Shown here in pieces: positions 6,969 to 25,751 of a DNA stretch of 27,758 nucleotides (positions within the stretch are counted from its first letter, which is position 1; each line of letters opens with the position of its first letter). The notes under the pieces were generated by a model that was given only the letters and a program-made list of their open reading frames with translations, had not been told where the DNA came from and searched no databases. Location of the stretch: the IMG/VR virus record IMGVR_UViG_3300042564_000616, positions 1-27,758 of that record. One strand, 5' to 3'. The DNA is from a virus. The position numbers and the translations under genes are program-made.

Positions 6969-7610
6969 TTACTGCTTTATAACAGACTCAACGCTGTGTA
7001 TGAAGCCGCCCACAAACATTTTAACCACGGTTAATGTCTTTTCATCTTTAACGTAAAAATGACAGCCACCCCAGCAGGCTTTCTTAGATAAATCTGCTTT
7101 AGCACGTTTAGGCATGCGGATTTTATCCTTGCCTTCACACCATTGTACAAAGTTAGTAAAATCTTGTTTAGTCCTGCCCATAGTTACTTTATAGGCAAAG
7201 TCTAGATTTTTAACAATGATAGTACCTTGGTCTAAAACATCGTCTGTTCCTGTTGCTGGCAAACATACGTACTTGACGCGATCTGAGTCAAGTTTAGCTA
7301 GCTTTTCGATATCTTCTTTAGTATTAGTATAAAAGCTAATGAAAGGATTTTCAACTCTAATCTCGTAGTTTGATAATTTTTCCAGTGCTTCTTTTAACCA
7401 TGAAGTGTATAGTTGTTCGTCAAGAGTCAGTCTAATAAGCCATTTGTCAGCATTAGGATCGTTTTGAAGAAGTAACTCTTCAGTTACCCTTTCAAAATTA
7501 CAACCTCTAAACCAGCCAGCAGCTTTAGATACAAGCACAATTTTGTACTTGTATTTGTTGTTAAACAGCTTGGTTGTCTGCTTGGTCTGTATGGTTGGAT
7601 ATAACTTCAT
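6969..7610 (-). CDS. Unknown phage protein (213 aa), overlaps clpA
   Basis: A 213-residue soluble protein with no motif I can assign. Visible features are KYKIVLVSKAAGWFRGCNFERV near the N-terminus, WLIRLTLDEQLYTSWL (about 57-72), and a Cys-containing stretch ACWGGCHFYVKDEKTLTVVKMF near the C-terminus. The alternating pattern suggests an alpha/beta protein. It starts 50 bases inside the 3' end of clpA in another frame, preceded by AAAGGTAG; no other ATG exists nearby. It ends the clpA transcription unit, directly before the terminator at 6913-6950. Position beside clpA hints at an adaptor or regulator, but nothing in the sequence proves it. Confidence 0.8.
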   Translation of the reverse strand: MKLYPTIQTKQTTKLFNNKYKYKIVLVSKAAGWFRGCNFERVTEELLLQNDPNADKWLIRLTLDEQLYTSWLKEALEKLSNYEIRVENPFISFYTNTKEDIEKLAKLDSDRVKYVCLPATGTDDVLDQGTIIVKNLDFAYKVTMGRTKQDFTNFVQWCEGKDKIRMPKRAKADLSKKACWGGCHFYVKDEKTLTVVKMFVGGFIHSVESVIKQ

Positions 7611-9846
7611 CTACAACTACCTTTTGTACTTTTGGTTTAGCAGTTAAACTTAACAAATTATCAGCTACTCCAATGCTCAATGCTCCACCGTGCTTTAGGT
7701 CACCAAACAACATCATCTTAGCCAATGGACGTTTAATGTCCTTGTCAATGACACGTTGCAGAGGACGAGCACCCATTTTACTGTCAAAGCCCTTGTCAAT
7801 TAACCAATCAATTGCATCGTCACTGATTTTAATTTTAATGCCTTTGTCTTTAACTTGTTCACGCACTTCGACCATAAACTTACCGACAATTTTGATCATT
7901 GTTTCTTTAGTCAGCTTACCAAATGTAACCACTGCATCTAAACGATTGCGGAATTCAGGTGCAAAGAATTTCTTCAATGCTTCATCGCTATATTGCTTTT
8001 CTTGTTGACCGAATCCAATCTGATTCTTTTCAGAATCACTTGCGCCAGCATTAGTAGTAATGATTAGAATCAAATTACGGCAATCTGCTTTCTTACCATT
8101 AGATCCTGTGACAAATCCGTTGTCCATCATCTGTAATAAGATAGTTGACACATCAGGATGTGATTTTTCAATCTCGTCTAGCAACAACACACAGTTGGGA
8201 TTCTCTTGAACCTGTGTAATTAACAAGCCTGAATTTTCTTCAAATCCAACATAGCCCGGAGGTGATCCAATTAACTTACTAACTGAGTGCTTTTCTTGAT
8301 ATTCACTCATGTCAAAACGTATAAGTTTAACACCTAAGTTCTTAGCCAATGCTTTGGCAGTTTCAGTCTTACCTGTACCAGTTGGCCCCATAAACACAAA
8401 TGCACCTACTGGACGATTCTCTGCTTTTAGACCAGCCTGGCTGACCAATATCTTATCAACAATTTCTGTAATAGCAGTATCTTGTCCATAGACTTCTTGT
8501 TGCAAGTTAGCCTCAAGATTAGCGAGACTACTTGACTCTTGTTCTGCAATTTTTTCAGTGGGCATGTTAACAACCTTGGCCAGTTCGTATTGAATGGCTG
8601 CTTCGTCAACAACACGGTCGTCTGCAAGTTTAAGATTGAAACGACTGCAAGCAAGGTCGATTAGATCAATTGCTTTGTCAGGTAACTTTTTATCTGTTTG
8701 ATACTTAATGCTGAGTTTAACAGCCGCCTGGATAGCATCGTCTTTGATCTTAACATTGTGATGACCTTCATAGTACTTCTTAATACCTTTAAGAATCTGT
8801 ATGGCCATTTCTGGAGTAGGCTCATCAATAGTGATACGTGCAAACCTACGCATGAGCGCACGATCTTTTTCAAAGTACTTGCGATATTCTTCCCAAGTAG
8901 TTGATGCAATAACTTTAATATTGCCCTTGCTTAGTGCAGGCTTCATCATGTTGGCAAGATCGTTACTATTTTGCTGTCCACCTGCACCTGCCCCACTGAT
9001 CATGTGTGCTTCGTCAATAAACAAAACGGTCTTGCCTTTCTTGTCAAGACCTTTAAGTACCATTTTAAAGCGTTCTTCGAAGTCTCCGCGATACTTTGAT
9101 CCTGCAAGCATGGCACTGATGTCCAAGTTGAACACTGTATATTCTTTTAAGAAGTCTGGAACAGCACCTTTAACAATATTATAGGCTAGTCCTTCTGCAA
9201 TAGCAGTTTTACCAACACCTGGATCACCAACTAGTATCACGTTTGACTTGCTACGGCGCCCTAGTGATAAGGCAATGTTTTCTAACTCGTCAATACGACC
9301 AATGACCGGATCAACCTTGTTCTTTTTAACTGCATCATTAAGGTTAGTTGTAAATGCACGTAGGGCTTTTTCGCCCTGTCCGTCTCGTTGTTCTTCCACT
9401 GAGTCTACTTCTGTAATATCTGAATTTAAATAATCGGCAAATTTATCTTTGTCAATCTCTGCTTGTTGAATGTAATAGTTTGCATATGAACGCTTTTCGC
9501 TCATCATAGCAAGGAATACATCTGTTGGTTCAATTTTTTGACGCCCATTAAACAGGACCTGTGTAAATGCACGATTAAGCACACGCTCTACTGCCTGCGT
9601 CTTACGTGGTTTAACATCTGTTTGTTCTGTGATGATTTCATCACATTTATTTTTAAGATACAGCTCTAAATTCTTTTTAAGGAAATCAGCATCTGCACCA
9701 TAGCCAGTGACACATTTATGAAATGTATCTTCGCATAACATAGAAAACAACAAGTGTTCAATTGTTAAGTATTCATGCTTTAGCTTCTTAGCTACATCAA
9801 TAGCTTTTTCAAATACCATTTGCAATTCGCTGCTAGGTTCTACCAT
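7561..9846 (-). CDS. clpA: ClpA-type AAA+ unfoldase
   Basis: A 761-residue, full-length ClpA homologue (E. coli ClpA is 758). It has an N-domain (1-145), D1 with Walker A GDPGVGKT (207-214) and Walker B VLFIDEAH (274-281), D2 with Walker A GPTGTGKT (487-494) and Walker B VLLLDEIE (553-560), and the C-terminal small domain with GARPLQRVID. There is no ClpB middle coiled coil, which excludes a disaggregase. The IGF tripeptide at 610-612 falls where ClpA and ClpX carry the loop that docks on ClpP, so it could feed substrates to host ClpP. No clpP lies in this window. The start has AGGA seven bases upstream and overlaps the 2OG oxygenase stop by 7 bases. Confidence 0.95.
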   Translation of the reverse strand: MVEPSSELQMVFEKAIDVAKKLKHEYLTIEHLLFSMLCEDTFHKCVTGYGADADFLKKNLELYLKNKCDEIITEQTDVKPRKTQAVERVLNRAFTQVLFNGRQKIEPTDVFLAMMSEKRSYANYYIQQAEIDKDKFADYLNSDITEVDSVEEQRDGQGEKALRAFTTNLNDAVKKNKVDPVIGRIDELENIALSLGRRSKSNVILVGDPGVGKTAIAEGLAYNIVKGAVPDFLKEYTVFNLDISAMLAGSKYRGDFEERFKMVLKGLDKKGKTVLFIDEAHMISGAGAGGQQNSNDLANMMKPALSKGNIKVIASTTWEEYRKYFEKDRALMRRFARITIDEPTPEMAIQILKGIKKYYEGHHNVKIKDDAIQAAVKLSIKYQTDKKLPDKAIDLIDLACSRFNLKLADDRVVDEAAIQYELAKVVNMPTEKIAEQESSSLANLEANLQQEVYGQDTAITEIVDKILVSQAGLKAENRPVGAFVFMGPTGTGKTETAKALAKNLGVKLIRFDMSEYQEKHSVSKLIGSPPGYVGFEENSGLLITQVQENPNCVLLLDEIEKSHPDVSTILLQMMDNGFVTGSNGKKADCRNLILIITTNAGASDSEKNQIGFGQQEKQYSDEALKKFFAPEFRNRLDAVVTFGKLTKETMIKIVGKFMVEVREQVKDKGIKIKISDDAIDWLIDKGFDSKMGARPLQRVIDKDIKRPLAKMMLFGDLKHGGALSIGVADNLLSLTAKPKVQKVVVDEVISNHTDQADNQAV

Positions 9847-10439
9847 TTAGTTTCCTTTGTTGTATAATTAATATTAATTACTACACGTTTTGCCATAGTA
9901 GTTGGAGACTGACTAGCATGGTAGTGTAATCCGTTAAACCATATAAGTTTATTTTCTTCAGGAGTTGAAGTTTCCATTATTGTTGATTGCCCTTTATGCA
10001 CTTGTTGAAAATATTGATATGTATCTGCATTATCCGAAGAATCATATTTTTCATTATATATTTGAGTATCGCCGTCGCCGTCGTCAAGATAAAGTAAGCC
10101 AACCATGTGTGGATACGGCAAATCTACGTGGGCACCGCCGGTAAAATATTGAGGACTAATAGAATGTAATCCTAATCGAATTCGTATAATTTGGTCAACG
10201 TTTTGTCCGCTGTTTTCTAGTGCCGAAAATGCAGCTATCATTAACGGATCGCCTAATGGGGATACAGATTTTCCATCCATAATAGCAAAATGAGTCCACG
10301 AATGACTATAGATGCTCGGCTGTGCAGAGTAATAGTCAGTCATGGTAGCGTACCACGGAGTTTCTATACCTAATATTAGTTGTTTAACTTTTTTAAAAAC
10401 TATAGGAGTTAGTGCGCCATAACATTTATTAACAGTCAT
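9840..10439 (-). CDS. 2-oxoglutarate/Fe(II)-dependent oxygenase
   Basis: A 199-residue protein of the phage 2OG-Fe(II) oxygenase type. Iron ligands are H104 and D106 (GGAHVDLPYPHMVGLLYLDD) and probably H174 (LHYHASQSP); R185 (AKRVVININY) fits the 2-oxoglutarate contact. These enzymes hydroxylate or demethylate proteins, nucleic acids or small molecules; related genes are common in cyanophages and pelagiphages and their substrates are mostly unknown. It lies between the J-protein gene and clpA, overlapping clpA by 7 bases. Family assignment is good; the substrate is open. Confidence 0.9.
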   Translation of the reverse strand: MTVNKCYGALTPIVFKKVKQLILGIETPWYATMTDYYSAQPSIYSHSWTHFAIMDGKSVSPLGDPLMIAAFSALENSGQNVDQIIRIRLGLHSISPQYFTGGAHVDLPYPHMVGLLYLDDGDGDTQIYNEKYDSSDNADTYQYFQQVHKGQSTIMETSTPEENKLIWFNGLHYHASQSPTTMAKRVVININYTTKETKW

Positions 10440-10458: not shown

Positions 10459-11310
10459 TTAATGTAGTTTAACATATAATGCTTGTAACTCTCGAATCAA
10501 TTGGGGATCTGTTACAGCCGGAATGTGTATATTAAGTACAACAATTAAACTTCCTACTCGTCCAGTATTCACATCTCTAAATCCGCGGCCACCGCTGGCA
10601 AACTCTGCCCCATGCTGAATTCCTGGGCGCAATCTTAACGGCATTGTTGATCCGTCTAGGCAAGCAACCTCTTTCATACAACCTATCATAGCTTCTAAAG
10701 CTGTAACAGTTAGTATGGTAATTAGTTCATTACCTCGGCGTTCCCAAACAGGATCAGGTTCAACTATTACTGTTACGTTGAGATTACCTCGAGGCAGATT
10801 GGGAATAGAATCGTCGCCTAAATCACCGTAGCGAATAGTTTGGCCGCTTTGCACACCTGGTGGAATATCAACTACCACAGTTTGCGCACGGCCAGCAGGT
10901 GTATTAAACCTTGCCTCAATTTGCGTACCAGTATAACTTTGCTTAAACGTAATGCTAACCCTAATTGATAGATCTTTATTACGACCTCGCTGCTGGAATC
11001 CTCCGAAAGGGCTGGCTCCTCCAAATCCAAATGCTGCTCCGAAGATATCGTTTACATCGGGGAATCCATGATTGCTACTACGTGCGTGAATAAAGGGGTT
11101 ATTTTTTTGAGCGTTATACTGTTGTCGTTTTTGCTCGTCGCCTAACGTGTCATACGCTTGCGATATTTCTTGAAATTTTTGTGTGTCGCCACCACGATCA
11201 GGATGATTCTTCATGGCCAACTTTTTGTAGGCCTTTTTGATATCATCCTGACTTGCGTTTTCAGCTACACCTAATATTTGATAATAGTCCATAGTGCTAT
11301 TATATAGCAT
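10459..11310 (-). CDS. dnaJ: DnaJ/CbpA-like J-domain co-chaperone (no zinc finger)
   Basis: A 283-residue class B J protein. The J domain (about 7-72) has the HPD motif at 36-38, needed to stimulate DnaK ATPase. A Gly/Phe region follows (about 80-110, [13 protein letters not shown]), then two beta-rich C-terminal substrate domains (110-283) without the CxxCxGxG zinc repeats of true DnaJ, so CbpA is the closer comparison. It should work with host DnaK. ATG 11310 has AGGT upstream; ATG 11292 (MDYYQILGV) is a common J-protein start but has no ribosome site. Together with clpA and groES it gives the phage three proteostasis genes. Confidence 0.92.
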
Positions 11311-14854: not shown

Positions 14855-14926
14855 TTACTTTAGTCCAAAATGACTAAGTAATAGTGTAGGACCTCTGTAG
14901 TTACTGAGGCGGTCGCTACATGTCCT
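14855..14926 (+). promoter_or_regulatory. Two inverted repeats in the phoH leader
   Basis: Between the divergent genes, TTACTTTAGTC (14855-14865) pairs with GACTAAGTAA (14872-14881) with one bulged T. Then AGGAC (14888-14892) and TGTAG (14896-14900) pair in nested order with CTACA (14916-14920) and GTCCT (14922-14926). Neither is followed by a T-run. They could fold in the phoH leader RNA or serve as operators. The ribosome site GGGAGA at 14941 lies outside the stems. No convincing -35/-10 pair was found for phoH. Confidence 0.4.
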
Positions 14927-14952
14927 GCTTTACTAAAAGTGGGAGATACTTA

Positions 14953-15675
14953 ATGAGTAAAAACAATCGAGTGAAAAAACGTTTTACTTCAGATGTGAAT
15001 GTAATTGATTTCCATGCACACAAACCTGCGAAAAAACAGCGTGTAAACCTGTTACCTCGCAATAAACACCAAGAATCTTATCTATTCAAGCTCAACGATG
15101 ACAACAAGAATATCTTGTTTGCCGTCGGACCTGCTGGTACAGGTAAAACCTTGTTGGCTGTTCAAATGGGAATCAAACTTTATCAAGAAGGTAAAGTTGA
15201 TAGGATTATAGTCACGAGACCTGCCGTTTCTGTTGATGAGGATTTAGGATTCTTACCTGGTACGCTAAATGAAAAGATGGCGCCATGGACAAGACCAATC
15301 TTCGATGTATTAGGAGAATATTATCTAACTAAGGAAATCGAATCGATGCTAGAAGAAGGCATTATAGAAATAAGCCCACTTGCATATATGCGCGGCCGCA
15401 CGTTTAAGAATGCTTACATTATTGCGGACGAAATGCAGAATGCAACTCAGAACCAGATGAAAATGCTACTAACCCGCCTAGGAGAAAACTCTAAAATGGT
15501 AGTAACTGGCGACTTAAACCAAGCAGACAGATTAAAAGACAATGGACTTATAGACTTCATCGGCAAGATTGAAGGACGTAAGTTATCTCACATTGATATT
15601 GTGCGTTTTGATAGTAGTGATATCGAACGACACAATGCCGTTAAGGAGGTACTAGACCTTTACGGTGACGATTAA
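14953..15675 (+). CDS. phoH: PhoH-like ATPase/ribonuclease
   Basis: A 240-residue PhoH-family P-loop NTPase, the only plus-strand gene in the window. Walker A is GPAGTGKT (59-66) and Walker B AYIIADEMQ (153-161); DEDLGFLPGTLNEKM (95-109) and MVVTGDLNQ are typical PhoH blocks. PhoH is widespread in aquatic phages; it has been linked to phosphate stress and RNA metabolism, but its role in infection is unsettled. ATG 14953 is chosen because GGGAGA lies seven bases upstream; an in-frame ATG at 14920 lies inside the upstream stem-loop and has no ribosome site. A strong hairpin terminator follows. Confidence 0.95.
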   Translation: MSKNNRVKKRFTSDVNVIDFHAHKPAKKQRVNLLPRNKHQESYLFKLNDDNKNILFAVGPAGTGKTLLAVQMGIKLYQEGKVDRIIVTRPAVSVDEDLGFLPGTLNEKMAPWTRPIFDVLGEYYLTKEIESMLEEGIIEISPLAYMRGRTFKNAYIIADEMQNATQNQMKMLLTRLGENSKMVVTGDLNQADRLKDNGLIDFIGKIEGRKLSHIDIVRFDSSDIERHNAVKEVLDLYGDD

Positions 15676-16460: not shown

Positions 16461-16981
16461 TACTCATCTCCTATTTGTCTTACTTCGATCCCTGATCGTT
16501 CGAGAAACGTGATGCCACCAGTATCCCTATAAGAGTTCCTATATAGAACACTGCTAATACCACTTTGGTAGATAAGTTTGGCACAGTCCAAACATGGAGC
16601 ATGGGTAATAAACATAGTAGCACCCATACCAGATTCGTTAGACTTAGCAAGTTTCGCAATGGCATTAGTTTCAGCATGAAGCACCTCTGGTTTTGTTTTT
16701 AATCGATAGCGACCCTGCATTTCATTGCCATCGGTATCTAAGTAAGTACCTTCGTATGGCCACCCTTCTATAATCTCTTCTGCACTTAGCCATCCGCCAG
16801 CACTACACCATTCTACATTTTCACAGTTGTTATCCCAACCAGCTGGCATACCATTGTATCCAATAGAAATAATTCTATCATCCTTGACTACAATAGCACC
16901 AACGTGTAGTCTTCGAGCATGACTTAGCTCTGCGAATGTCTCCGCAGTTTTCATGTATGCTAGTTTTAACTTTTCCTTCAT
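16460..16981 (-). CDS. cd: dCMP deaminase
   Basis: A 173-residue zinc-dependent deoxycytidylate deaminase. The zinc site is HAE (102-104, H102 ligand and E104 proton shuttle) and PCLDC (C130, C133). HARRLHVGAIVVKDDRIISIGYNGMPAG (21-48) is the conserved dCMP deaminase N-terminal block. It converts dCMP to dUMP, feeding dTMP synthesis for phage DNA replication. T4 gene cd is the comparable enzyme (193 aa). Its start overlaps the clamp-loader gene by 4 bases, so replication and nucleotide supply are coexpressed. Confidence 0.94.
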   Translation of the reverse strand: MKEKLKLAYMKTAETFAELSHARRLHVGAIVVKDDRIISIGYNGMPAGWDNNCENVEWCSAGGWLSAEEIIEGWPYEGTYLDTDGNEMQGRYRLKTKPEVLHAETNAIAKLAKSNESGMGATMFITHAPCLDCAKLIYQSGISSVLYRNSYRDTGGITFLERSGIEVRQIGDE

Positions 16982-17892
16982 AGATGCGATAATCTAATCA
17001 GCGTAGCAGCCAAGTTGATTTCAGGATCACTAACTAAGGTATGATCAACTAGTCCTTGCTTGATAATAAGGATAGCTTTTTCTTGTAAGGCTTCATTGCC
17101 AAAGATAGTAACGTTGTCATACAACCAGCGATAGATTTCCTCCATCTCCTCTGGACGGGCTTGTCCGCATACAAGTTTACGTGCTTCTGAGATTTTGCCT
17201 TTCTTAAAAAGCTCAACCATTTCTAGCTTATAGTCTTGTTCGCCAGTGTCGCCCTTTTCAGGAGTATGCAGTTTGCCTTCTAAGCTGTTCATCTGCACAG
17301 TATTAATACATTTACGCAAGTCTGGGTAGGTTGCTTTGACAAACGTATCCAGTGTGTCAAGATCAAACTCTACGTTCTCTTCAACAAGAATAGTAGCAAC
17401 ACGAGCAGTAAATTCAGTAACGTCAACTCGCTCAATGTGGAATCCCTGACAGCGACTATGGATAGCAGGGATAATCCTATTAGGATAGTTGCAAGTAAGA
17501 ATAAAGCGAGCGGTCGTATGGTATTCTTCCATGACGCCTCGTAAGGCTGCTTGTGCATTGGGCGATAAGTAATCTGCTTCATCTAGTAATACTACCTTAA
17601 AGTCTCCGAATGGAATCATCTGTACAAAGTTTATAATCTTGTCACGAACGTCTTCGACTGAGTTAGTACGTGATGCATTAATTTCTAAGATATCTAAATC
17701 TTGAATCTCAAGTTCATTAAACAAGATCTTTGCCAGTGTTGTTTTGCCAATACCAGCATTGCCACTAAACAGCAAATGCGGAATAGTACCTTGCTTGATC
17801 CAGCTTTGTACTTGCTCTCGTTGATGATTGTCTCTAAACACATACCCGTCAACTGTTGCAGGACGGTATTTTTCTACCCATAGTTCTTTCAT
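16978..17892 (-). CDS. 44: Sliding-clamp loader ATPase subunit, gp44-like
   Basis: A 304-residue AAA+ protein of the replication factor C small-subunit / T4 gp44 family (T4 gp44 is 319). It begins LWVEKYRP, the typical RFC box, with Walker A GNAGIGKT (44-51), Walker B VVLLDEAD (100-107), sensor 1 LTCNYPNRI (132-140) and the arginine-finger SRC (146-148). It loads the phage sliding clamp onto primer junctions together with gp62; neither gp62 nor the clamp gp45 is in this window. ATG 17892 overlaps the stop of the 45-aa mini-gene, suggesting coupled translation from the promoter at 18212-18240. Confidence 0.94.
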   Translation of the reverse strand: MKELWVEKYRPATVDGYVFRDNHQREQVQSWIKQGTIPHLLFSGNAGIGKTTLAKILFNELEIQDLDILEINASRTNSVEDVRDKIINFVQMIPFGDFKVVLLDEADYLSPNAQAALRGVMEEYHTTARFILTCNYPNRIIPAIHSRCQGFHIERVDVTEFTARVATILVEENVEFDLDTLDTFVKATYPDLRKCINTVQMNSLEGKLHTPEKGDTGEQDYKLEMVELFKKGKISEARKLVCGQARPEEMEEIYRWLYDNVTIFGNEALQEKAILIIKQGLVDHTLVSDPEINLAATLIRLSHL

Positions 17893-18621: not shown

Positions 18622-18969
18622 TTATAAACTATTAAACAGTACGTCTTTAGGCGGCTCGTCCGATGATAACAGAATATCTTTATTATCAACTCGACGAATG
18701 ATAATTTCGTCACCACTTTCGTCTTCTATAGTAACGCCTCGAGTCCATCGACCGTGATCAATGTAGACCCACTCGCCTACTTTAACATCTAATTGTTCCG
18801 GACCCACAGCGTATACTCGACCCCACCTTGGTTTAATGCCAGATGATTTTCCGTTACCTGATAATACTACAATACCAGATTGTGTGGTCTCGTCGCCGAA
18901 TTCCATATCTCTAATCAGTACATGATCTCGGATAGGTCTAATCTTGCCGCGTGTTACATTTAGACTCAT
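18622..18969 (-). CDS. groES: GroES/gp31-like co-chaperonin
   Basis: A 115-residue co-chaperonin. IRPIRDHVLIRDMEFGDETTQSGIVVL (about 11-37) is the GroES start with the mobile loop (FGDETTQSGIVVL) that binds GroEL; GRVYAVGP and VGEWVYIDHGRWTRG form the rest of the beta barrel. T4 gp31 (111 aa) replaces GroES so that host GroEL can fold the capsid protein gp23; the same job is likely here. Sequence is closer to GroES than T4 gp31 is. It lies between the 96-aa gene (4-base overlap) and mazG. Confidence 0.92.
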   Translation of the reverse strand: MSLNVTRGKIRPIRDHVLIRDMEFGDETTQSGIVVLSGNGKSSGIKPRWGRVYAVGPEQLDVKVGEWVYIDHGRWTRGVTIEDESGDEIIIRRVDNKDILLSSDEPPKDVLFNSL

Positions 18970-20596: not shown

Positions 20597-23076
20597 GTTA
20601 TTATGGTCCTGTCATTTCTAAATACGATATATTTATCAGTGGTATCGCCGGTGACAGAATCTATTGTATACCTATCAATGGTGTAGTCGATTTTATTAAA
20701 GCTAAAATCCGTATTATTTTTTAGATAATTTTTAATGTTTAGTAATATGTCAGCACCTCGGCCAACCTTACAAAAGCATAGGGGAATAGCGTTAACAAAT
20801 CCTAATTCTTGAACGCTACCGTCCTGTACAGTTCTCATCCATAAAGGCATGTAATTTCGATCATGTAGTCCCAGCTGCTCAATACGCTTGCGCCATAAAG
20901 AAATACTTCCCGGTCCTCTAAATTCACCATCTGGGTATACATCGCTACGATCTGCGGTTACTGAATACGGTTGAGGCCTGCCCCAGAATCTTTCTGAAGT
21001 ATCAAACGGACCATTAAAGTAAATATTTGTTTGGTCAACTGTAGCCATCATAGGGTCGATAGATCCAACAACAGCTAAGTCTAACGTTTTATCACCAATT
21101 TCAAGAGGATCAATAACATCGATATAAATTACTTCGTACACTACAGTATTAGTAGCTGGTACTTTTGCCCGTGCTAGTTTAATATCACCTAGTTTAAAAC
21201 GCTTCTTACGATGATTTTGTCCAACTACTGAAACTACCTGTGCCGCAGTTTTAGTTTCAATACCAGCATACACGGACATTTTTAAATCATTTTGTATGCC
21301 AAAATTAGCATCTCCCGGTCTGTAAATAGCAGTGGCGTCGAATACACTGGTATTTCTAATAAATGTTTTAAACATTTCTCGTTGATCTAATTTAAGATAC
21401 GGTTTAGCAGTTATATTACTGTATAATCTATTATTTGGAGTAATAACAGTTAGGTTAAATGTTCTTGATATCGCACTGTAGCCTAAAATGTCTCGAGCAT
21501 TTATTGTAAACGAATATTCACGATCAAGGGTAGTAGTACCTGCATCTAAACTCAAACTGCTGCCGTCAAATGTAACAATGCCTTGATTTGTAAACGTATG
21601 TACAACCCAGTGACTTATATTAAATGTAGCACTTACACTGCTCATAATAGCCTTGTAATATATTCCACTGCGTAGAACTACATTGTTTATATTGTAATTT
21701 CGCATGGCCGTCCACAGGCCTTGATATTGTACACTGTCACCAAACTGTGTTACTTTGCCCACAATCTCACCATCTAATGCCAGTGTTAAACCGGGAGGTA
21801 GCGCACCACCAGTTTTTACGTACAGTATAACAGAATCAGTAATTGTAGTAGATGCAACAACAGACAAGTTGCTGATCAAATTAGCTTCAATATTACCTAA
21901 GTTTGATCCAGTTATCCATCCCATTACACTTTCAACTTCACCTAATACTTGCACAGTAAATGTGCGCTTGCTTGTAGCAGTTTCTGAACGATCGCTTAGT
22001 CTTGTTGCACTAACGGTAAATCGGTAAGTTTTAGTAATTGCCGGCTGGTAAGGAACTACTCCAAACACTTCAGCAGTGCCTTGATCAAATTGCATACCTG
22101 GAGGCAATACACTTGCACTCAAGTCCGGATTGGTTGAATCCAATGAATAGACAATAGGACCAAGATCTAAGTCTTCATATGTGTCTAATCTTATAGTTTG
22201 ATAATTGTTTGCTCTACGCACCCCAAGGTTAGCAGGAGTAACCCAGATTGGCGCACGTACATAAGTTGCATCGACCATAAATGATCCGGAACCAGCAGTA
22301 GTAATAGTATTGTCTGCCCTAAAGTAATCGTCGCCAACTACATATATTTTAAATTTTCGTTTTACTTCAGTATCACCGTCTGTGATTGTTACAATAAATT
22401 CATAATTACGATTTAATTTTTTAGGACTAAGACTGGCAGTACTAAAGTCAAAAATTGCAGTATCGTAAATATAGCTGTCATACCCGTTGGATGATCTATA
22501 ACCAAAATCAAATGCAACTGCATCATAAACAGCAGTGTCAAAGTATCCGTTACCTGCCGCTGTTGGAATGACTAACGCAGGCTGTACCCAGCCAGCAATC
22601 CTTCCGGAGTCTGTCAATACTAATCCCGGGGGAAGGGTTCCTTCGTTACTGGCAATAAAATACTTTAATGATTGCCCGGCAGCAGTATCGGTATCGGTAG
22701 CAAGTAGTTGAAAATCAATATATGAACTATCGAGAATGTAGTAAACATTATTAGGGCCAATTGGTAGAGATCCGGCGGCGGTTTGCCATACTGGCTGATC
22801 TGCACCTTCAATAGTCCAAAAGAATGTTCTGTCGGCAAGGTCTGTTCCGTTACTAGCTCTAACAACAAATTTAAAATCAGTTGTACGAGGAACCTCAAAC
22901 GGTGATCCTTGAATAGTATTGTTTACTATTCTTAGACCGGGAGGCAACTTACCAGAGATAACTGAATATGTAATTCCCACGCTGTTATTAGCAGGCAGCA
23001 ATATATTAACTACACTACGTTCTTGTACTGTATCAAACCTGTATCCAGATTGCTCAGTCCATATGTTCAATGCCAT
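20593..23076 (-). CDS. Ig-like-domain (He_PIG type) virion protein, probable tail fibre/baseplate-associated
   Basis: An 827-residue beta-rich protein. At least four putative Ig (He_PIG-like) repeats are marked by the core G.LPPGL: about residues 41-47 (GKLPPGL), 145-151, 317-323 (SVLPPGM) and 422-428, each followed by a G.....G turn. Such cadherin/Ig-like repeats bind sugars or cell surfaces in many phage structural proteins. The C-terminal 200 residues (from about NRLYSNITAKPYLKLDQREMF) lack the repeats and look like a separate assembly domain. It lies between the subtilase and the fibre-associated protein, one base overlapping the former. Confidence 0.82.
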   Translation of the reverse strand: MALNIWTEQSGYRFDTVQERSVVNILLPANNSVGITYSVISGKLPPGLRIVNNTIQGSPFEVPRTTDFKFVVRASNGTDLADRTFFWTIEGADQPVWQTAAGSLPIGPNNVYYILDSSYIDFQLLATDTDTAAGQSLKYFIASNEGTLPPGLVLTDSGRIAGWVQPALVIPTAAGNGYFDTAVYDAVAFDFGYRSSNGYDSYIYDTAIFDFSTASLSPKKLNRNYEFIVTITDGDTEVKRKFKIYVVGDDYFRADNTITTAGSGSFMVDATYVRAPIWVTPANLGVRRANNYQTIRLDTYEDLDLGPIVYSLDSTNPDLSASVLPPGMQFDQGTAEVFGVVPYQPAITKTYRFTVSATRLSDRSETATSKRTFTVQVLGEVESVMGWITGSNLGNIEANLISNLSVVASTTITDSVILYVKTGGALPPGLTLALDGEIVGKVTQFGDSVQYQGLWTAMRNYNINNVVLRSGIYYKAIMSSVSATFNISHWVVHTFTNQGIVTFDGSSLSLDAGTTTLDREYSFTINARDILGYSAISRTFNLTVITPNNRLYSNITAKPYLKLDQREMFKTFIRNTSVFDATAIYRPGDANFGIQNDLKMSVYAGIETKTAAQVVSVVGQNHRKKRFKLGDIKLARAKVPATNTVVYEVIYIDVIDPLEIGDKTLDLAVVGSIDPMMATVDQTNIYFNGPFDTSERFWGRPQPYSVTADRSDVYPDGEFRGPGSISLWRKRIEQLGLHDRNYMPLWMRTVQDGSVQELGFVNAIPLCFCKVGRGADILLNIKNYLKNNTDFSFNKIDYTIDRYTIDSVTGDTTDKYIVFRNDRTIIT
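20630..20637 (-). promoter_or_regulatory. Possible intragenic late promoter (GATAAATA)
   Basis: CTGATAAATATATCG on the minus strand lies inside the last codons of the Ig-like gene, 34 bases before the ATG at 20596. Same core as the intergenic motifs at 3623 and 6932, but here it also encodes protein (Asp-Lys-Tyr-Ile), so chance is more likely. Confidence 0.3.
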
Positions 23077-25751
23077 TACAACGTCCTTCTAATTCTAGGT
23101 CGAGGAAATACTGCTCCTGCACTAGGTCTATGCTTGTAATTGATCTTAGGGAACGTATTTCCACTAACTGCTCTTTCTTTGTAGTAATATAAAAATAAAT
23201 TAGCAGCGCCCTGCAAATCTTGTCCATCTGCAGCACCACCTGATGTGGCGGTTAGTTGATTTGATTTAGCATATGCTAGTATGTAATCCTTGGCCTGTGA
23301 TTGATTCATATTAGGATATATTTCCAAAGCACATGCTAATACTCCACATACTTGAGGACTGGCCATCGATGTTCCACTATACTTGCCTAGAAAATAACTT
23401 CCATTGCGAGGATCATTAATGCCGCTTGGTAGCGAACTAATAATGTAAGTCCCCGGCGCCCATATATCTACACCCGGGCCACAATCACTATATTGTACTT
23501 TTTGATCTGTAGATATTGTATCAACTGATCCAACACATATTGCCGGCAAATCATAATCGCCACCACCTGCTATATTATCATTCGCAGTGGGACTAGTCCC
23601 ACGCATATAATAGTACGGTTGTGCTACACTACCTGGATAACGACTAGCCATTTCAAATGTGTTACTCCAGTCAGTGCCACCGGGCACATCATGTTTCCAT
23701 CGGCCATTGCCGGCAGCACCTACCATGACAATACCTTCTTCGTATAGGTCGTCTAAGTCAATGTCACAAGCTGGCACTCTAGCAGGAATACGTTGGCCTG
23801 CTATAAATCCCCAACCGTTAAGTTGTTCTGTTGTAAATCCAGTGCCTACGGTCTTTCTGCCGTTTGCACCTAGTTGTAGATCAATCTGTGCAGGTGTTGC
23901 TTCGTAAAATATATATTCATTAACCATAGATGGACTGCCAACAGTTCCGCCAGTTGATGCTGCACCTTCGACTCGTACACGATATGTTCTATTAGGAGCA
24001 GTTCCTTCAACACCGTAGTAAATTCTCTGTACTGAGTTGTCGGCACACGACCACATGATCTTAGGTAAATTAGGAGTGATTGCATTTAACCCTGACCACA
24101 CAGTTGAACCAGATCCAAATGTTACATAATGATTAGTACTAACATAGATAGTACTGTATTCTGTTCCAAGATATTCAATACTAAATGGCAATGCCAATGT
24201 CCAATATCCGTCGTCATTGTTTCCCACTGTTGGAGTTGTTAGACTTGCAAGACTACCGGCACCAAGTAAGGTATTTGTAATAGTTGTCACAGCTGCCGTT
24301 GCAGCATGTGAATCAGTAATTACTGTTAACGACATTGCTGTTGCAAACAACGGATTACTCACACCTGATACATCAATTACACTTAAAAATGTAACAGTGT
24401 ATGTGTCAGTATTTGGTAAATTAACTAACGTTTCGTTAATATTAATCTCAATAGTTCCACCGTTAGTTGTTGACTGTTCTACGGCAGTAAACCTGTGAAC
24501 TTCTACCGCACTTGAATTAGTAATAACAATTTCGCCGGCAAGCGACATAGTTCCAGATATTGCATCAATTGCAACATTGTGTATTAGATCTAAATCTGCT
24601 GGACCTTGAACAGTTAATTGGTAAGTGCTGTTGGGTTGTGAAAGATCAATAAAATATGCCTGCTGGCCTTCTAGAGTCCATGTAATCGGCTGTATTAATA
24701 TACTGCCGCCTGGAGGTGTATATGGTCCAGCAGTGGTAATCCTATTTCCATGATTTTCAAAACCCGCAAGTAAAGCCAATCTTTCATTTGCAGTGCATAC
24801 ACCGCTAAACCCAGTAAAGGTAGGAGAGCCTACATCGGGTGTGTAACGAATCCCTCTATAGGTTACTGCTGTAATGTCGCTAAAAGACCATTCACTAGGA
24901 AAAATACTCATACCCCAACTGTTGTTAACAATAGTTGGATTCTTGCGACCTATATCATTGTTAACAGTTTTATTTCTATGAAATGCTCTAATGTAATCAA
25001 AGACTAGACTAAACTCACTAACCGGTGTTCCTGTATCATAGTATAGATTGTAGATGTTAGCATTACGGGCCCAACCCTGTGTGTTACCAGCAACTGTACC
25101 AGCAACGTGTGTTGAGTGATCACCTACGCCATAACTGTATGTACCGTTAGTACCGTTGCCAATTTCAGCATTATGTTGGAACCAGTTGTACTGGATGGCT
25201 CTAGTGCCGCCAGTGCCATCTGCATTAACTGCATACTCAGGATGATTCCATACAATTCCGTTTGAGTCGCAAATCACAACATCAACATTACGTCCAGTTT
25301 GTGTGAGATTAATGGTACCAGTTTGTGCAGGAGTACCGACGCCGCCGCCTGAATATCCACTTCCGCCCCATCCTGATCTCTGAACACCTTCTACACATCG
25401 TAGCAATCCCCAATTTTTCATAGTGTTACTGGTAGTCCCAGACTTGTCCCATGCTGTTGATGTTTGTACTATATTATTAATGCCAGATTTAATTCCAAGA
25501 TAACGCGGCGCAAGAGTTACTGATTTAATACGTGGGTCATTTTTTAACGCATCTGCCTCCCAGTCTGCTAGCAAATAGTGTGTGTTTCTGCTAGTAGTTC
25601 TTCGATGTAGGCAATCAACACTCCGAGTTAATTCTATGTTTGGAGGTGCTTTACCTTGAGTTTCTAAATCGTCGTAAATGGATTCTAAATCTTGAAAATC
25701 ATTCACTGATACAATGTATTCTTTTTTTCGAAGGTAGTCGGCTATAGACAT
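23076..25751 (-). CDS. Subtilisin-like (S8) serine protease with large insertion, in the tail region
   Basis: An 891-residue protein with a complete subtilase triad: D162 (VDVVICDSNG), H212 (GDHSTHVAGTVAG) and S795 (SGTSMASPQVCG), plus oxyanion N276 (NNSWG). The HGTH motif is HSTH here. Residues 11-80 (EYIVSVNDF... ALKNDPRIKSVTL) resemble an I9 propeptide. Between N276 and S795 lie about 520 residues, against about 65 in subtilisin, holding a beta-rich part and a nidogen-like block (LPFSIEYLGTEYSTIYVSTNHYVTFG). No signal peptide is seen, so it is probably a virion protein that cuts host-surface or phage tail proteins. The neighbours are all fibre-type genes. Confidence 0.9.
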   Translation of the reverse strand: MSIADYLRKKEYIVSVNDFQDLESIYDDLETQGKAPPNIELTRSVDCLHRRTTSRNTHYLLADWEADALKNDPRIKSVTLAPRYLGIKSGINNIVQTSTAWDKSGTTSNTMKNWGLLRCVEGVQRSGWGGSGYSGGGVGTPAQTGTINLTQTGRNVDVVICDSNGIVWNHPEYAVNADGTGGTRAIQYNWFQHNAEIGNGTNGTYSYGVGDHSTHVAGTVAGNTQGWARNANIYNLYYDTGTPVSEFSLVFDYIRAFHRNKTVNNDIGRKNPTIVNNSWGMSIFPSEWSFSDITAVTYRGIRYTPDVGSPTFTGFSGVCTANERLALLAGFENHGNRITTAGPYTPPGGSILIQPITWTLEGQQAYFIDLSQPNSTYQLTVQGPADLDLIHNVAIDAISGTMSLAGEIVITNSSAVEVHRFTAVEQSTTNGGTIEININETLVNLPNTDTYTVTFLSVIDVSGVSNPLFATAMSLTVITDSHAATAAVTTITNTLLGAGSLASLTTPTVGNNDDGYWTLALPFSIEYLGTEYSTIYVSTNHYVTFGSGSTVWSGLNAITPNLPKIMWSCADNSVQRIYYGVEGTAPNRTYRVRVEGAASTGGTVGSPSMVNEYIFYEATPAQIDLQLGANGRKTVGTGFTTEQLNGWGFIAGQRIPARVPACDIDLDDLYEEGIVMVGAAGNGRWKHDVPGGTDWSNTFEMASRYPGSVAQPYYYMRGTSPTANDNIAGGGDYDLPAICVGSVDTISTDQKVQYSDCGPGVDIWAPGTYIISSLPSGINDPRNGSYFLGKYSGTSMASPQVCGVLACALEIYPNMNQSQAKDYILAYAKSNQLTATSGGAADGQDLQGAANLFLYYYKERAVSGNTFPKINYKHRPSAGAVFPRPRIRRTL

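Follow-up and report, generated by a model that had tools for sequence, protein, structure and literature searches.

ClpA has long been annotated in phages, and a phage ClpA by itself is nothing new in kind. The family phrog_4871, labelled 'ATP-dependent protease', holds the ClpA proteins of RaK2-like, PA5oct-like and Atu_ph07-like phages. For the Agrobacterium phage Atu_ph07, ClpA, ClpP, ClpS and ClpX are listed, with DnaJ beside ClpA (PMC6102473); the accessible portion of that paper gives the list for this one phage and states no rule of co-occurrence across phages. Iyer et al. 2021 (PMC7824862) presented ClpP and ClpS as alternatives, with phage ClpS feeding the host ClpAP, and suggested a role for phage ClpA in translocation or assembly. 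Among large aquatic phages, moraphages have ClpA and PhoH in their core set and some carry DnaJ, DnaK and HSP20 (PMC12619734), and bS21 phages carry chaperones and a Clp protease (PMC9723584); unlike what we report below for relatives of our locus, no ClpP/ClpS partnership is described in the accessible portions of these two papers. The literature on huge phages and pmoC phages made no mention of Clp, and in a literature survey that was mostly open-access we found no statement that possession of ClpP and ClpS is the rule among ClpA phages. The consistent set of ClpA, ClpP and ClpS is the noteworthy part of what follows.

We analyzed a 27,758-bp virus fragment (IMG/VR record IMGVR_UViG_3300042564_000616, here termed the window) that encodes a ClpA-like protein. 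Like E. coli ClpAPS, this protein and its relatives keep the motor motifs and the position of the docking loop, lack the ClpB middle domain, and in relatives are accompanied by ClpS and ClpP; unlike in E. coli, the phage genes are spread over tens of kilobases, and ClpS lies beside DnaK and a small heat-shock protein rather than beside clpA. Sequence comparisons make it probable that the open reading frame supplies the unfoldase of a Clp protease encoded by the phage itself, a ClpAPS of its own that is linked to chaperones, rather than a means of hijacking the host.

Domains and docking loop of the ClpA-like protein

The clpA interval holds a single uninterrupted ClpA-like reading frame, and the opposite strand there is packed with stops (Table 1). 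The original prediction of a full-length phage ClpA is borne out by the intact frame, the presence of all domains and the IGF motif at residues 610-612; the strand had gone unstated and is minus. Pfam identifies Clp_N (weak but significant), AAA, AAA_lid_9, AAA_2 and ClpB_D2-small domains, and the phrog_4871 profile matches full-length (E = 2.9e-250; residues 6-737 against profile positions 10-757 of 764). Domain order is the same as in the isolated-phage members of that family, to which the window protein is 38-44% identical; the freshwater group to which it belongs differs from them in keeping IGF strictly and in having a conserved overlapping gene 3' of clpA.

Table 1. Positions of the features discussed, in window coordinates.
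Feature	Position	Strand	Details
Conserved gene, 213 aa	6969..7610	minus	50-nt overlap of its 5' end with clpA
clpA	7561..9846	minus	761 aa, phrog_4871; N domain ~1-143, D1 ~165-450, D2 ~451-735
IGF codons (residues 610-612), ClpP-docking loop	8011..8019	minus	by alignment; IGF in 80/80 relatives
Gene between dnaJ and clpA	9840..10439	minus	phrog_274 (label: endonuclease V)
dnaJ-like co-chaperone gene	10459..11310	minus	J domain and C-terminal domain
PhoH	14920..15675	plus	opposite to clpA; synteny marker common to the window and PA5oct-like PAC2
Clamp loader (T4 gp44-like)	16978..17892	minus	synteny marker
GroES-like (Cpn10) co-chaperonin	18622..18969	minus	clpA's strand

Both AAA+ modules, likewise predicted to be intact, keep their Walker A (207-214 and 487-494) and Walker B motifs (to E279 and E558), arginine fingers (R333, R334 and R635, aligned with R339, R340 and R643 of E. 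coli ClpA), sensor-2 arginine (R694) and pore loops (KYRG from residue 251 and GYVG from residue 531). No change occurs at these motor positions in ten isolated phages or in 80 environmental relatives. Identity to E. coli ClpA is about 44% overall, 48-50% in D1 and D2, and 23% in the N domain. The N domain thus diverges, as had been suggested, from its E. coli counterpart, but ClpA phages bring their own ClpS.

The best solved relatives of the window protein are E. coli ClpA structures, and its predicted fold matches ClpA, ClpC-ClpP and ClpAPS complexes (the pTM of the model is low, 0.44, and only the fold match was used). The architecture is that of ClpA, with Clp_N, two AAA+ modules and D2-small; neither hallmark of ClpB, a middle coiled-coil domain and the lack of a ClpP loop, was found. 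E. coli ClpA (1ksf) matches in a single stretch (6-728), and ClpB matches only in two stretches. The ClpA equivalog model of NCBIfam, TIGR02639, gives 874 bits, under its cut-off of 993 but still the best score of any model and above the ClpB models. This sub-cut-off score places the protein, as judged from its sequence, in a ClpA-like phage branch rather than among strict bacterial ClpA equivalogs, and with ClpA as the closest chains there is no sign of a ClpB-like placement.

Alignment with E. coli ClpA puts IGF opposite IGL (617-619), where ClpA and ClpX loops had been said to bind ClpP. Divergence of the loop, raised in the original prediction as a point against it, is not seen among close relatives (Table 1); the loop has drifted only in the distant RaK2-like branch (IGV, IGM, MNM and LGM). 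In the model, residues 606-618 form a low-confidence segment (pLDDT under 50), as expected for a predicted mobile docking loop. Phenylalanine occupies the third position of the loop in 29 of 30 bacterial ClpAs sampled; because IGF-like loops occur in most of these proteins, we regard IGF as an ordinary ClpA motif and not a phage adaptation.

ClpP and ClpS in ClpA-bearing phages

No ClpP is encoded in the window, which as a 27,758-bp fragment is uninformative about the full genome. The original prediction stressed this absence and proposed that the phage may redirect host ClpP for want of its own. Relatives do carry ClpP, and the absence is an artefact of the 27.8-kb fragment. Of 18 IMG/VR records that encode this ClpA, six also have ClpP, and searching from the ClpP side reached three further records with both genes. 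In all nine relatives with enough sequence, ClpP shares clpA's strand and lies 30-57 kb 5' of it (gaps of about 55, 43, 30, 57, 41, 52, 48, 48 and 46 kb). The twelve ClpP-less records extend no more than about 40 kb 5' of clpA, where only the ClpP at 30 kb would be reliably caught, and so do not contradict the rule. With 17.9 kb available on that side, the window's ClpP would fall outside. Among the IMG/VR relatives, ClpS and ClpA occur together on a single record, 383 kb long, with a ClpA that shares 82% identity with the window protein. From these relatives we infer clpP and clpS also for the phage from which the window comes, whose available sequence ends at 27.8 kb, as the record of a near-identical relative (L001) does at just 39 kb.

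The same partners recur in isolated phages. We hand-chose ten complete or near-complete genomes of ClpA-bearing jumbo phages from about five lineages: Phosso, PAC2 (PA5oct-like), Vibrio 2.275.O, RaK2, Atu_ph07, Munch, SCTP-2, 121Q, GAP32 and XaC1. All ten encode ClpP, and a ClpS search matches each of them at E <= 0.001, with nine above the Pfam cut-off and XaC1 below it. ClpS was found in none of nine large phages that lack this ClpA; one of these, phage G, has a strong ClpP, and two have weak ClpP-like matches. In phage G the ClpA search gave just a weak match to an AAA protein adjoining its ClpP. The association of ClpS with ClpA gives a Fisher p of 1.1e-5 (10 versus 9 hand-picked phages), or 5e-4 when the ten are reduced to five lineages; on hand-chosen phages the test is indicative. 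Across 50,697 phage records, a ClpS search matched 20. These comprise the PA5oct group, Phosso, Atu_ph07, SCTP-2 and CBB, every one of which also has ClpA; the remainder are a fecal contig of 4.9 kb and Acinetobacter DNA wrongly classed as phage. The top ClpA match in INPHARED, 'Acinetobacter phage MD-2021a' (CAKLQF020000008.1), was set aside as host chromosome, with clpS-clpA beside argC, aroF and fadH; the record represents host contamination within a phage collection.

The partner proteins appear intact. The Ser-His-Asp triad is kept in 14 of 14 aligned ClpPs from ClpA-bearing phages (six freshwater, eight isolated). Freshwater phage ClpPs share 48-62% identity with the E. coli protein. Pocket residues vary among phage ClpPs in general, Y60 being replaced by H, T or Q in the freshwater proteins. 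Four phage ClpPs, three freshwater and that of PAC2 (L084, L085, L086 and L105), have an insertion of about 10 residues right after the catalytic histidine, which the other freshwater ClpPs lack; one lineage holds two ClpP types. ClpS of the 383-kb relative keeps N34, D35, T38, M40, V65 and H66, as well as E79 and K84, in an alignment from which the RaK2 row was left out; in E. coli ClpS we take the first six to be the N-degron pocket and the last two to be ClpA contacts.

Half of the isolated phages (RaK2, Munch, 121Q, GAP32 and XaC1) form one branch. These phages keep ClpA, ClpP and ClpS, but their ClpS has an N-terminal extension and pocket residues that are lost or drifted. With both the IGF loop and the ClpS pocket drifted, the RaK2-like branch may work differently.

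Taken together, the parts list of a phage Clp protease is present in sequence, and the assembly, activity and substrates of ClpA and ClpP are what we infer from it. ClpA hexamers would dock through the IGF loop on phage ClpP tetradecamers encoded 30-57 kb away, and substrates would either come to ClpA unaided or be delivered by a phage ClpS recognizing N-terminal degradation signals, and would then be degraded. Weighing against this reading are the variable pocket residues of phage ClpPs, the single IMG/VR record that has both ClpS and ClpA, and the drift of loop and ClpS pocket in the branch that makes up half of the isolated phages. We consider it unlikely that phage ClpA instead docks host ClpP to redirect host proteolysis, leaving phage ClpP to do other or extra work. 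Docking on host ClpP is chemically plausible with an IGF shared with most bacterial ClpAs, mixed use of phage and host ClpP may occur, and Iyer et al. (PMC7824862) proposed that phage ClpS serves the host enzyme; yet a phage ClpP with an intact triad occurs in every sufficiently complete ClpA genome checked, both the long relatives and the isolated phages, and CBB, among the ClpS matches, has its own ClpA.

Chaperone genes and the gene overlapping clpA

The window is collinear with PAC2 across a pol III alpha domain, GroES, the gp44-like gene, PhoH (on the opposite strand), two virion genes, DnaJ and ClpA; in PAC2, clpX, clpS, ftsH and clpP all lie within 25 kb 5' of clpA. DnaJ is directly 5' of clpA in 79 of 80 loci and also adjoins it in Phosso, PAC2 and Atu_ph07. 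In the window one gene intervenes (Table 1), which by eye looks 2OG-Fe(II) oxygenase-like. Since it is confined to the window and L001, it appears to be a recent insertion or replacement outside the conserved core. Elsewhere in the window, 23076-25751 (minus strand) encodes an 891-aa protein with a subtilase domain (PF00082) that adjoins tail-like genes.

ClpS in relatives belongs to a run of DnaK, a small heat-shock protein, ClpS and heme oxygenase (small heat-shock protein and ClpS in 80/80, DnaK in 73/80, heme oxygenase in 78/80). Together with DnaJ by clpA, the DnaK-sHSP-ClpS run indicates that the clpA lineage carries most of the bacterial proteostasis set. DnaJ, and in relatives DnaK and the small heat-shock protein beside ClpS, probably work in one proteostasis network with the protease during the long infection of a jumbo phage, in which phage ClpAP, ClpS and chaperones would remove or recycle proteins of the infected cell.

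Two further gene pairs accompany the ClpS run. Right after clpS, freshwater relatives (L194-L273) carry the heme oxygenase (78/80) and a ferredoxin-dependent bilin reductase (PF05996; 71/80), located at 5802-7018 in L357 (G004:C1:1-20000). A phage heme-catabolism cassette has already been described (PMC11480375), and a link of it to clpS was not found in that paper. Roughly half of the relatives that extend far enough also encode CsgG and CsgF (curli secretion; 2073-3515 in L357) a few kilobases 3' of the run; PMC9004378 deals with phage CsgGF.

The linkage with DnaJ also bears on a reading that we consider quite improbable: a ClpP-independent ClpA, acting with DnaJ as a disaggregase or virion-assembly unfoldase, with ClpP as a separate head-maturation protease. 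Besides DnaJ next to clpA, it draws on several records that label ClpP 'head maturation protease', on the assembly role put forward by Iyer et al. (PMC7824862), and on the RaK2-like phages, whose clpA has virion genes as neighbors and encodes a degraded loop. Against this, IGF is conserved in all 80 relatives, needlessly for a ClpP-independent unfoldase, and ClpS, a ClpA-specific adaptor, travels with ClpA. Moreover, PAC2 clpP lies away from head genes in the annotated stretch, and the related moraphage core set, in the accessible portion of PMC12619734, includes a prohead protease of its own.

The neighboring gene that overlaps clpA, noted in the original prediction as a candidate adaptor or substrate, is a real open reading frame and not an artefact, as every one of the 80 relatives has a homologue immediately 3' of clpA. 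The overlap across relatives is mostly 8-50 nt, and the start of the 3' gene inside clpA suggests translational coupling. Homologues share 33-69% identity across the 80 relatives, as against 75-95% for ClpA in the same loci. The confident model of the product (pLDDT 94.3) has two alpha/beta halves, which structural alignment matches to ferredoxin-like folds, and so predicts a tandem ferredoxin-like protein. Eight viral proteins match this fold at E <= 0.001, seven of them uncultured phage proteins without known function and the eighth an Atu_ph07 protein with a low TM; no PDB entry matches at that threshold, and the best VIA match (Z 5.8 over half the protein) is in that tool's "common" range. 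INPHARED, Pfam (E 0.001) and PADLOC gave no usable family, and in a PHROGs search with 53 family members single members reached E 0.002, with no phrog recurring in more than two. A ClpS-type adaptor is rejected, with no PF02617 in Pfam (E 0.001) and a different, two-ferredoxin-like predicted fold. The constant adjacency to clpA fits the adaptor-or-substrate idea, and the product may be an adaptor, a regulator or an unrelated late gene.

Origin and significance of phage ClpA

Two maximum-likelihood trees separate phage ClpAs (27 and 18 rows) from bacterial ClpAs (33 and 35) with 100/100 support, and the freshwater group forms a separate 100/100 branch. Neither tree is rooted, some of their branches are long, and the bacteria in them are mostly Pseudomonadota; a single old origin of phage ClpAs is favored but not proven. 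No bacterial ClpA exceeds 46-47% identity to the window protein. A 53% match in a metagenome-assembled genome (L118) lies on a contig with a phage-like clpP 12 kb away, and such Rickettsiales MED657 matches were rejected as bacterial donors since they are probably phage contigs binned in the assembly. On the MED657 contigs (L118, L119, L123 and L124), clpP lies about 12 kb from a clpA of phage type; they probably come from a marine jumbo phage binned with its host, and two ClpPs from them also keep Ser-His-Asp.

Uptake from the host, for which the original prediction had proposed a tree, finds no support in this topology, with all phage ClpAs on one side of the branch. That clpA is a passenger recently taken from a host is accordingly highly improbable: its overall likeness to bacterial ClpA (about 44% to the E. 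coli protein) is offset by the phage/bacteria split in both trees, by the ceiling on bacterial identity and the phage-like context of the one higher match, and by the conserved gene order around clpA.

A broader reading can be offered tentatively, as possible though doubtful. ClpA jumbo phages would possess a complete, vertically inherited ClpAPS with chaperones, to which the overlapping gene of the freshwater group would add a further phage-specific adaptor or regulator, giving N-degron proteolysis independent of the host.

If the co-occurrence of ClpA, ClpP and ClpS holds, phage ClpA and ClpS would be parts of a virus-owned protease rather than host hijackers, which contradicts the view of phage ClpS feeding host ClpAP. 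One could then test directly which host proteins a phage removes and whether its ClpP and that of the host are interchangeable; the conserved overlapping gene offers a specific candidate for a novel regulator of Clp.
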